This document shows, in pieces, positions 3,731 to 15,897 of a stretch of 37,039 bases of DNA (position 1 is its first letter; each line of letters opens with the position of its first letter). Below the pieces are notes generated by a model. That model saw only the letters and a list, made by a program, of their open reading frames with translations, was not told the DNA's origin and searched no databases. Location: assembly GCA_028874795.1 (NCBI GenBank), contig JAPPHT010000072.1, forward strand, positions 4,256-41,294, given 5' to 3'. This stretch comes from Chloroflexota bacterium. Its GTDB lineage: Bacteria > Chloroflexota > Dehalococcoidia > Lucifugimonadales > Australimonadaceae. The position numbers were made by a program, and so were the translations under genes.

Positions 3731-3777
3731 TGGATTCCCGCCTTCGCGGGAATGACGGGTGAGGGCGGGAATGACGG
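3731..3777. repeat. ATTCCC...GGGAAT palindromic repeat (family A)
   Basis: ATTCCCGCCTTCGCGGGAAT at 3734-3753 is a near-perfect 20-base palindrome, followed by TGACGG and then a half copy, GGGCGGGAATGACGG. The same core appears three times at 8289-8308, 8396-8415 and 8503-8522. The ATTCCC-N8-GGGAAT plan resembles the dRS3 repeats known from Neisseria and similar small dispersed repeats in other genomes. It ends just before the stop of the minus-strand hydrolase and may also act as a hairpin at the convergent junction. Confidence 0.8.
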
Positions 3778-7082: not shown

Positions 7083-7811
7083 TCAGAAGTAGAGGCCGGC
7101 CTGCGGGAGCAGCAGCAGGTCCTCGATCACCTGCTTGTCCGAGACGGTCATAGCGCTCACGATGGCGTCGGCGACCTCCTCAGCGGTCAGCATCTCCTCC
7201 ACGGGGAGCGGCGGGCTCCCTCCCTCCCATATCGGCGTGGCGACGGGCCCGATGAAGGCGTTGACGACGCGCACGCCCTGCCGCCGCACCTCGGTCGTGA
7301 GCGCCCGTGCGAAACCGGTTACGGCGTGCTTCGTGGCGCCGTAACCGGTCATGCCGGCGTAACCCCGGTGGGCGGCGACGGAGGAGATGATGACGACGTA
7401 GCCCAGCCCTCGCTCCAGCATGCCTGGCAGCAGTGCGCGCGTGGGGAACAGCGTGCCGCTCACGTTCGTCTCCCACAGGTCGCGCCAGGTCTCGTCGTCC
7501 AACTCGGTGAGCGGCACGGCGGTGAAGACTCCCGCCGAGTTCACGAGGATGTCGACGCGCCCCAGCTCCCGCTCGGCGCGTGCTGCCATCTCCCGGACGG
7601 CGGCGCTGTCCCGCACGTCGCAGGGGAGCGCGACCCACGCATCGGCCGGCCAGCCGGACGCGGCCTCGCGCAGCCGCTCCTCGCTGCGTCCCACGAGCGC
7701 GACGCGCACGCCCGCGTCGACGAGGCGCTGAGCGATTGCCCGGCCGATGCCGCTCGATGCGCCGGTGACGACGGCGGTCTTCCCGGCGAGGACGCTCGCG
7801 GCGTCGGTCAC
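7083..7811 (-). CDS. SDR family oxidoreductase (possible pterin reductase)
   Basis: The 242-residue short-chain dehydrogenase has TGASSGIG at 16-23 (dinucleotide binding), NSAG at 91-94, catalytic Ser143/Ser144, and YGATK at 157-161. It begins at GTG 7811, which overlaps the TGA of the upstream pterin synthase as GTGA (7808-7811). This 4-base coupling places it last in a four-gene minus-strand operon: Rieske protein, two pyruvoyl-tetrahydropterin synthases, SDR. By position it may reduce the side-chain carbonyls of a 6-pyruvoyl-tetrahydropterin, as sepiapterin reductase does. Sequence alone only says classical SDR, about 245 residues as usual. Cytosolic. Confidence 0.88.
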   Translation of the reverse strand: MTDAASVLAGKTAVVTGASSGIGRAIAQRLVDAGVRVALVGRSEERLREAASGWPADAWVALPCDVRDSAAVREMAARAERELGRVDILVNSAGVFTAVPLTELDDETWRDLWETNVSGTLFPTRALLPGMLERGLGYVVIISSVAAHRGYAGMTGYGATKHAVTGFARALTTEVRRQGVRVVNAFIGPVATPIWEGGSPPLPVEEMLTAEEVADAIVSAMTVSDKQVIEDLLLLPQAGLYF

Positions 7812-8236
7812 GGGTTCGCTCCGGCAGCCGGGTACTCGAACCGGTTGTTGCGGGTCTCGTCCAGGATCACTCGTTCGAGGCGTCCGGCGAGCGGCCCACT
7901 GAGGCGCTGCCAGACCATCCGGGCGATGTTCTCGCCGGTGGGCACGAGGTGGAAGTAGTCCTCCACGTCCAGGTTCAGGTAGCGGTGGTCGTAGAGGTCG
8001 AGGACGTTGCGCCTGACCGCGTCGTCGAGCTCGGTCAGCGGTATGACGAAGCCGGTCTCCGGGTCGACGGGGCCGCCAACAGTCACGGTGAGCCCGTAGT
8101 TGTGACCGTGGCCGTTGGGATTGGCGCACTTGCCGAAGATGGCCTCGTTCTCTTCCGGCGAGAGGGTGTCCGCGTAGAGCCGGTGCGAGGCGGCGAACGT
8201 GTAGCGCCGTGAGAGGTGGACGACAGGCGCGCTCAC
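7808..8236 (-). CDS. 6-pyruvoyl-tetrahydropterin synthase-like protein, paralogue 1
   Basis: This 142-residue PTPS/QueD superfamily enzyme has zinc ligands His18 (AASHRL), His43 and His45 (NGHGHNY), catalytic Cys37 (FGKCANPNGHGHNY), the Asp83-His84 pair (DHRYLNLD), PTGENI near 99-104 and Glu127 near the end. The FGKC-x2-PNGHGHNY pattern matches animal-type PTPS, which converts dihydroneopterin triphosphate to 6-pyruvoyl-tetrahydropterin, better than E. coli QueD (C-x3-HGH). GTG 8236 is the start; it is the last of four copies of a start junction created by the upstream 107-bp repeats, the first of which is an ATG at 8557. It overlaps the SDR by 4 bases. A queuosine role (QueD) remains possible. 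Confidence 0.85.
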   Translation of the reverse strand: MSAPVVHLSRRYTFAASHRLYADTLSPEENEAIFGKCANPNGHGHNYGLTVTVGGPVDPETGFVIPLTELDDAVRRNVLDLYDHRYLNLDVEDYFHLVPTGENIARMVWQRLSGPLAGRLERVILDETRNNRFEYPAAGANP

Positions 8237-8573
8237 GTGGTTGCTCCGAACGGGGTCTCCGTCTTGACAGGTATGACAGGGCTGCTGGATTCCCGCCTTC
8301 GCGGGAATGACGGTAGATAGAGGTGGACGACAGGCGCGCTCACGTGGTTGCTCCGAACGGGGTCCCCGTCTTGACAGGTATGACAGGGCTGCTGGATTCC
8401 CGCCTGCGCGGGAATGACGGTAGATAGAGGTGGAAGACAGGCGCGCTCACGTGGTTGCTCCGAACGGGGTCTCCGTCTTGACAGGTGTGACAGGGCTGCT
8501 GGATTCCCGCCTTCGCGGGAATGACGGTAGATGGAGGTGAACGACAGGCGCGCTCATGCGGTCGCTCCGAAGT
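8213..8573. repeat. Three 107-bp tandem repeats plus partial fourth unit
   Basis: GAGGTGGA-type unit starts fall at 8213, 8320, 8427 and 8534, an exact 107-bp period. Each full unit holds a copy of the gene junction (end of paralogue 2 and start of paralogue 1, about 40 bp) plus a family A palindrome (cores 8289-8308, 8396-8415, 8503-8522). Units differ at a few bases. On the minus strand each unit is an open frame of 36 codons (8447-8557, 8340-8450, 8233-8343). Each begins ATG or GTG and ends at a TGA that overlaps the next GTG by 4 bases. The translated centre reads LPSFPRRRESSSPV. The repeat fills the gap between the two pterin synthase genes. Confidence 0.95.
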
Positions 8574-8970
8574 AGTCGACGTAGAGGTCGTCGGCTTCGT
8601 AGAGGCGGAGACGGGACAGCGTCCCCCCATCCAACGCGCCCACGATGAGGTCCCAGAGCACGGCAGCGAGGTTCTCGGTCGTGGGCTGGCGGTCGCGGAA
8701 CCAGGGCGTATCGAGGTTGAGGTGCTTGTGATCGAAGTCCACGAGCACGCTCTCGACGGCGGACTTGAGGTCGACGAGGTTGATGACCATGCCGGTGTCG
8801 GGGTCCGGTTCCCCGGAGACGGCAACCTCCAGCGTGTAGTTGTGGCCGTGGCCGTTGGGCAGGGCGCAGAGGCCGAACACGCGCCGGTTCTCCTCCTCGG
8901 ACCAGTCTTCGCGGTAGTAGCGATGGCTGGCGGAGAAGTCGAACCGGCGTGAGATGGTGACCGGGCCCAT
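8554..8970 (-). CDS. 6-pyruvoyl-tetrahydropterin synthase-like protein, paralogue 2
   Basis: The 138-residue protein has His16 (SASHRY), Cys35, His41 and His43 (FGLCALPNGHGHNY), TGMVINLVDLK (59-69), Asp80-His81 (DHKHLNLDTPWF), TTEN at 97-100 and Glu125 (RLYEADD). The run TGMV-x-NL-x-DLK, DHK-x-L and TTEN follows animal PTPS closely, so formation of 6-pyruvoyl-tetrahydropterin is the best guess. It starts at ATG 8970, 12 bases after the Rieske gene stop. Its TGA at 8554-8556 overlaps an ATG at 8557, the ancestral start junction of the next gene now displaced by the tandem repeats. It differs from paralogue 1 mainly at the C-terminus, which could alter substrate. Cytosolic; the family forms hexamers. 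Confidence 0.87.
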   Translation of the reverse strand: MGPVTISRRFDFSASHRYYREDWSEEENRRVFGLCALPNGHGHNYTLEVAVSGEPDPDTGMVINLVDLKSAVESVLVDFDHKHLNLDTPWFRDRQPTTENLAAVLWDLIVGALDGGTLSRLRLYEADDLYVDYFGATA

Positions 8971-14889: not shown

Positions 14890-15897
14890 ATGGACAGCCT
14901 CGCCGTAGCAGTGCCCGTATTCCTCGCCAGCGCCGTGCTGGTCGTGCTCGCCGGCGTCGCGCTTGCGCGGTACGGGGACCAGGTGGCGGAGATCACGGGA
15001 TGGGGCACGCTGTGGGTCGGCACCATCCTGGTGAGCATCGCGACGTCGCTGCCGGAGCTGATGACGAACATCACCGCAGTGCTGATCGAGGCGCCGGGGC
15101 TGGCGCTGGGCAACGTGTTCGGCGCGGACATGATCAACATCTTCACCATCTCCATGGTGGCGATCGTGTTCGGCATCAGGAACCTGTTCCAGGACCAGCC
15201 GAAGGACACGCAGACGCTGGTGGTCGTGGCGATCGTGCTGGGCATCATCGCCTTCGTCTTCGGAGTGCTCCGCGACTGGGCCCTCGGGCCGACGAGCGTC
15301 GGTGCTGTGGTGATCGCGGTGGGCTACGTGGTGGGGATGAAGCTCGTCTACAACGCGGGGAGAGAGGGCCGTGCGGCGGCAGCGGAGGAGGGCAACGGGG
15401 ATGCAGGCGAGCAGGCGGGAGGCGCAGCCCGCGTGTGGATCGGGTTCTCGGTTGCAGCGGGAGTCGTGCTGGTGGCGGCCTACTTCCTCGCGCTCAGCGC
15501 GGACGGCATCGCCGAGGCGACCGGGCTGGGCCGCAGCTTCATCGGCGTGCTGCTCGTCTCCATCGTCACGACGCTGCCGGAGGCGTCGGTCACGGTGGCG
15601 GCCGCGATGCGGCGTTCGTACGGGCTGGTGCTCGGCAACATCTACGGAAGCTGTGCGTTCAATCTGTTCGTCATCCCCATAGCGGGGCTGTTCTTCGTTG
15701 GCGGGCCGCTGCTGGCGGAGATGGAGCCGGCGCACTTCGTGGCGGCGGGGGCGGCGGTCGGGCTGATGACCGGCGGGTTCCTCATCATCCGCAGCTTCAA
15801 GACGACGGTGCTGTCGTGGCTGCGCCACCTGACCTATGCGTTGCCGCCCGCCTACATCGTGGCGCTGTTCTTCGTGTTCCAGCTGTCGGGGGACTAG
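14890..15897 (+). CDS. Sodium/calcium exchanger family membrane protein (CaCA)
   Basis: The 335-residue protein has about ten hydrophobic spans in two halves joined by a charged loop (about 158-180, GREGRAAAAEEGNGDAGEQAGG). Each half carries a CaCA alpha-repeat: VSIATSLPELMTN (48-60, Glu56) with GNVFGADMINIF, and VSIVTTLPEASVT with GNIYGSCAFNLF. These conserved T-[ST]-LPE glutamates bind the cation in YrbG/NCX_Mj-type exchangers, which trade Ca2+ for Na+ or H+. ATG 14890 is supported by AAGGAG with 9-base spacing; the ORF reaches 14809 but those residues are polar and upstream of the first helix. The ion is inferred from family. Confidence 0.9.
   Translation: MDSLAVAVPVFLASAVLVVLAGVALARYGDQVAEITGWGTLWVGTILVSIATSLPELMTNITAVLIEAPGLALGNVFGADMINIFTISMVAIVFGIRNLFQDQPKDTQTLVVVAIVLGIIAFVFGVLRDWALGPTSVGAVVIAVGYVVGMKLVYNAGREGRAAAAEEGNGDAGEQAGGAARVWIGFSVAAGVVLVAAYFLALSADGIAEATGLGRSFIGVLLVSIVTTLPEASVTVAAAMRRSYGLVLGNIYGSCAFNLFVIPIAGLFFVGGPLLAEMEPAHFVAAGAAVGLMTGGFLIIRSFKTTVLSWLRHLTYALPPAYIVALFFVFQLSGD

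Follow-up and report, generated by a model that had tools for sequence, protein, structure and literature searches.

Duplicated gene junctions around a CGTC-1 REP at an overlapping operon joint of a Chloroflexota bacterium, with micro-ORFs as candidate translation relays

The CGTC-1 REPs, as presented in the accessible sections of Di Nocera et al. (2013, PMC3733652), include the dRS3 elements of Neisseria and RPE-6 of Rickettsia, and no dedicated transposase was found for them, according to these sections. The same sections report REPs reiterated in tandem along with flanking DNA, and describe CGTC clusters as rare and head-tail dimers as negligible, which is a statement of frequency and not a definition. 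Other palindromic repeats have entered genes, i.e., intragenic REPs, Rickettsia palindromic elements, and the ORF-bearing enterobacterial RU repeats; their frames are kept open in coding DNA and, in the excerpted text of PMC2759123, the repeat extends a single protein by additional residues. On the side of translation, the available portion of Huber et al. (PMC10666635), which deals with E. coli and Haloferax, indicates that re-initiation requires overlaps or very short gaps. Coupling is nearly abolished there by spacers of ~20–40 nt (~22 nt abolishes re-initiation in H. volcanii; 38 nt costs 80–100% in E. coli), and no more of the upstream gene than its last 15 nt is needed. The locus described here touches all three of these systems.

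We analyzed a stretch of 37,039 nucleotides (the window), which lies on contig C24 of a 3.33-Mb genome in 90 contigs (G000). Its closest named relatives are Chloroflexota MAGs, one of them labelled SAR202 cluster bacterium; G001 is assembled as one contig, and all the other genomes are multi-contig drafts. On the minus strand, two PTPS/QueD-family genes follow each other: the upstream paralogue 2 (8554..8970, 138 aa, PF01242 with E 7e-31) and the downstream paralogue 1 (7808..8236, 142 aa, GTG start, PF01242). They are 47% identical, and both proteins score under the NCBIfam QueD equivalog cut-off and are therefore named QueD-like at most. Between them, TRF finds a tandem array at 8212–8571, with 3.4 copies of a 107-bp unit, 95% matches, 0 indels, and a score of 657, well beyond that of the window's two other arrays. 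The ORF list gives three minus-strand micro-ORFs of 36 codons each in this array: micro-ORF 1 (8447..8557, ATG start, MSAPVVHLHLPSFPRRRESSSPVTPVKTETPFGATT), micro-ORF 2 (8340..8450, GTG start, MSAPVFHLYLPSFPRRRESSSPVIPVKTGTPFGATT), and micro-ORF 3 (8233..8343, GTG start, MSAPVVHLYLPSFPRRRESSSPVIPVKTETPFGATT). Consecutive micro-ORFs overlap by 4 nt (GTGA), the stop codon of paralogue 2 overlaps the start of micro-ORF 1 (ATGA, 8554–8557), and the GTG start of paralogue 1 overlaps the stop of micro-ORF 3 (GTGA, 8233–8236), such that every link of the chain is a stop/start overlap of the form ATGA or GTGA. TRF and the ORF coordinates confirm the first-pass annotation, made from the letters of this DNA, which had described the 107-bp repeat and the three chained 36-codon micro-ORFs with their 4-base overlaps. 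Its rule that the unit equals 37 codons minus 4 bases holds as well (107 = 111 − 4), and all three units do keep their 36-codon frames open despite point differences.

These differences reach the peptide (V6F, H9Y, T24I, and E29G among the three units), whose sequence is not conserved and changes freely between units. We also considered that the micro-peptides could themselves be functional, as might be suggested by three ORFs of 36 aa that each have start and stop signals; the substitutions speak against this, the middle of each product is the peptide of a genome-wide palindrome, and different joints give unrelated peptides, so that the probability we leave to this explanation is close to negligible. 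The 111-nt unit folds no better than its shuffles (z 0.68), only the hairpin of the repeat being evident, and an Rfam scan of the window returned two tRNAs only.

Comparison with relatives defined the layout of the array. G002 has one junction (38 bp, 15378–15415), for which BLAST gives two alignments in the window, at 8213–8250 and at 8534–8571, and the single junction of G005 (36 bp) likewise aligns twice. The array is therefore read as J-R-J-R-J-R-J, where J is a 38-bp copy of the gene junction and R is a 69-bp insert. Within J, the final codons of paralogue 2 run into the overlap and on into codons 1–8 of paralogue 1: ~18 nt come from the end of paralogue 2 and 24 nt from the start of paralogue 1, 4 of them shared. 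On the minus strand, the G002 alignment places J-A (8534..8571), the end of paralogue 2 with a copied paralogue 1 start, and J-D (8213..8250), the true start of paralogue 1; the 107-bp register places J-B (8427..8464) and J-C (8320..8357). The first proposal, that a palindrome had been amplified with the gene junction, is confirmed with the correction that the junction is 38 bp long and exists in four copies around three inserts.

As its sequence directly indicates, the insert belongs to a dispersed family already known, the CGTC-1 REPs; the first-pass annotation had seen the palindrome and had not recognized the element. The three minus-strand inserts of 69 bp are R1 (8465..8533; palindrome 8503–8522, CGTC tag 8523–8526), R2 (8358..8426; palindrome 8396–8415, tag 8416–8419), and R3 (8251..8319; palindrome 8289–8308, tag 8309–8312); in R1, a CCA tail stands on the side of the palindrome opposite the CGTC tag. 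R contains CGTCATTCCCGC-N4-GCGGGAATCCAG, and the palindrome is perfect in all three units, for a chance expectation of 0.2 per whole window. With an AT-started stem of 8 bp and a 4-nt loop (ATTCCCGC-N4-GCGGGAAT), it fits the CGTC-1 definition. The genome carries 228 copies of the palindrome with at most 2 mismatches, against 0 for a reversed control pattern. Unpaired CGTC is found at one end in 69 of 71 copies from this genome and in 3 of 3 array copies, and the short unpaired tail is CCAG in 47 of the 71 and CTCG in 14. Moreover, the Y1 transposase domain (Y1_Tnp, PF01797) was not found in the bacterium's own genome and matches in 5 of 14 control genomes; a RAYT/Y1 transposase was thus rejected as the mover of this REP. 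The element hence resembles the CGTC-1 REPs of PMC3733652, in the part of that paper at hand, by its CGTC tag, its stem and loop, its CCA-type tail, its dispersed intergenic copies, and the lack of an associated RAYT gene. On the contrary, that part describes no head-to-tail units holding both a duplicated stop/start junction and closed micro-ORFs, and head-to-tail CGTC REP clusters are present in this genome, as opposed to the rarity stated there. As with the intragenic REPs, the RPEs, and the RU repeats covered by the excerpts of PMC2759123, frames are kept open in coding DNA; unlike them, the insert here yields small ORFs of its own, and the gene on either side is intact. Elsewhere in the same genome, a 54-bp unit with the same REP forms 7.6 head-to-tail copies (L154, contig C1, 14251–14657) and a REP-bearing 190-bp unit forms 2.4 copies (L155, contig C41, 9410–9866); in G001, about five copies of a REP-bearing 75-bp unit adjoin a run of ~20 C (L330, 8611–8960). 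The window itself has another single CGTC REP with an extra half-copy at 3734–3776; G005 and G002 lack this region or have it rearranged.

In 9 of the 10 relatives showing the PTPS junction, the two genes meet in a plain overlap without insert. This empty joint is ATGA or GTGA in G001, G002, G004, G005, G006, G009, G014, and G015, and TTGA in G008; the proposal of an ancestral ATGA is thus likely and not certain, as the empty sites carry either form. In the congener G003, one unit, 125 bp long, sits between the same junction repeats; its micro-ORF of 42 codons is open and its stop falls in the same overlap, the 18-nt difference between 125 and 107 bp preserving the frame. Copy number at this joint is hence 0, 1, or 3 units according to the species, and the amplification is real. 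An assembly artefact could be feared in a 90-contig draft obtained from a metagenome, and read or assembly error had been raised at the outset. We regard it as highly improbable: the copies are distinguished by private point changes, the independent MAG G003 has the one-unit form with the same junction boundaries, and similar loci exist in G004, G005, and G002. In a tree of ten flanking genes, G003 groups with G004 and G005 (99/97), away from G000. To judge from these sequences, either an older insertion was cleanly lost, a step that the 38-bp direct repeats make feasible, or the joint was hit or received by transfer more than once.

By locating direct repeats around other REPs, and naming genes from Pfam matches, we found the junction-REP-junction layout at three further operon joints in the genus, argH-rpe, an unnamed ORF-purS, and pdhA-pdhB, whose native joints are an 8-nt overlap, a 1-nt overlap, and a 2-nt gap, respectively. 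At argH-rpe, the overlap is GTGGCTGA and J is 26 bp long; the unit measures 160 bp in G000 and 166 in G005, and G002 has a unit of 139 with a different REP and a more diverged J. The ORF-purS joint, a TGATG overlap, holds two 92-bp units in G000, is empty in G002, G003, and G005, and is contiguous in G004. At pdhA-pdhB, where the native stop lies 2 nt before the ATG, G000 has two 132-bp units, G004 one of 124 bp, and G003 a 269-bp insert, while G005 is empty. Flanking repeats scoring at least 13 were nine among 150 REPs, some of these nine being double hits of one locus or REP clusters and not gene joints; five rounds with mismatched control pairs gave none. The flanking duplication is absent at most of the 150 REPs and is therefore not a general signature of REP insertion; a general target duplication was also rejected on four other aligned sites between congeners, where a flanking repeat is not clearly visible. 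A weak search of 118 genomes from the order with two narrow patterns, ATGA or TGATG directly before the REP, matched 12 and 8 genomes, respectively, with no further gene joint among the loci returned; L473, the most promising of these loci, is a cluster of intergenic repeats. When 1101 REP-like sites in the stretches examined were scanned systematically, the joints already described came up again and none was added, the other candidates looking like REP clusters or chance similarity (the two examined in full, both in G001, are REP clusters).

How would such insertions be tolerated between coupled genes? We propose that a CGTC-1 REP entered the overlapping stop/start of the two co-directional PTPS genes, and that the ~38-bp junction was duplicated on either side of it (J-R-J), both genes staying whole. 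The 38-bp direct repeats would then permit amplification to three units and probably clean loss in other species. A ribosome finishing paralogue 2 would re-initiate at the overlapping micro-ORF start, read through the REP, end at the next overlapping stop, and re-initiate again, lastly at paralogue 1. As coupling fails over spacers of ~20–40 nt, an untranslated 69-bp insert would be expected to uncouple the pair, which is why the micro-ORFs are read as relays. Overlaps of 4, 1, and 8 nt belong to the commonest classes of short gene overlaps and coupling is expected at them, in the accessible text of PMC6728339 and PMC10666635; unlike in those pairs, the relay ORFs here are borne by a repeat, a situation that this text does not mention. 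Further support for the link with coupled translation comes from the three other operon joints, where the layout and the closed micro-ORF are found again. On balance we lean, by a modest degree, toward a REP insertion with duplicated junction that was amplified and whose micro-ORFs act as translation relays. Two observations stand as counterpoints. Every J contains a purine-rich stretch that resembles a ribosome site, from which ribosomes could start de novo on the downstream gene and make a relay unnecessary, and the micro-ORF stops of pdhA-pdhB in G000 and G004 lie 13–18 nt short of the ATG, outside an overlap.

The closure of the micro-ORFs bears on selection. From the first J start, the micro-ORF runs through the REP and closes near the next start in 7 of 7 distinct inserts at four loci (PTPS in G000 and in G003, argH in G000/G005 and in G002, purS, pdh in G000/G004 and in G003). 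Stops begin at −18 to +5 nt relative to the next start, those of pdh falling 5–18 nt before the ATG without overlap, and one of the closed micro-ORFs has 88 codons. When the genus's other REPs are substituted in all three phases, chance closure is 17–47% per insert; shuffled inserts give 5–31%. Under the substitution null, the product is ~1e-4 over seven inserts taken as independent and ~4e-4 minus the discovery case; with one insert per locus, it is ~0.008, and ~0.03 for the three non-discovery loci. With so few cases, and with limits (−20 to +8 nt) that were chosen once the cases were known, these statistics are moderate evidence. The neutral explanation, in which a REP insertion with its duplicated junction was amplified by unequal recombination and the open frames are accidental, must be weighed here. 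All three forward frames of the REP are free of stops, so that closure comes cheaply; the unit length may simply have happened to fit, chance closure is not low for any one insert, the peptide is unconserved among units, and tandem REP clusters with flanking DNA are described in the sections of PMC3733652 at hand and exist in this genome (L154 and L155). Against accident stand closure in every distinct insert, once across 88 codons, and two same-joint pairs that differ in length by 18 nt (107 and 125 bp, PTPS) and 6 nt (160 and 166 bp, argH-rpe) and are still in frame. We give the neutral explanation roughly one chance in three in plain terms, a serious competitor that we nevertheless find the less convincing. 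With relays, REP insertions would survive where the micro-ORF is closed, and selection would then keep the frame open. The wider proposal, that REP-borne relays kept closed by selection hand ribosomes from gene to gene, as modules that come and go at joints across species, is put forward tentatively.

The first-pass annotation had suggested a slippage by-product or a device tuning coupled translation of the second gene. Recurrence strengthened the link with coupled translation; the tuning part fared poorly, most relatives being free of units and the peptide being free to change. A copy-number tuner, in which the unit number would set the level of paralogue 1 and vary adaptively, could draw on the differences between species (0, 1, or 3 units at the PTPS joint; 0, 1, or 2 at pdhA-pdhB) and on the direct repeats, which invite change. 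Yet differences between species do not show switching inside a population, and the four operons are unrelated, with no common regulatory logic; we consider this tuner very unlikely, and a relay that preserves coupling is the best reading of these sequences.

These joints indicate that a dispersed palindrome can enter an overlapping gene joint, the tightest-packed part of a genome, without breaking either gene, and, if the relay reading is right, while also sparing coupled translation. Filled and empty joints in sister species constitute natural experiments on ribosome hand-over along micro-ORF chains. The duplication of a 15–38-bp target at several gene ends is also a clue to the insertion of CGTC REPs, for which no transposase is known.

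Some other features of these repeats were observed. At ~1515 of L017 (G000, contig C89), a REP lies at a gene end; the product of this gene is, by eye, short-chain dehydrogenase-like, and the last 15 bp of the gene (TGGACGGCGCGCTGA) recur beyond the REP. In other genera of the order (G126, G113, G102, G090, and G076), a semi-conserved ATG-bearing stretch precedes the REPs (ATGACATAC.., ATGAAAGTGAAC..); this stretch may belong to a longer element or mark the start of small ORFs. Finally, many REPs of G000 (e.g., L002 at 1524, L019 at 1506, and L045 at 1501) have a second small hairpin after the REP tail, the stem of which varies in a paired way (GTGCCC..GGGCAC, GTGACC..GGTCAC, and GCGACC..GGTCGC).
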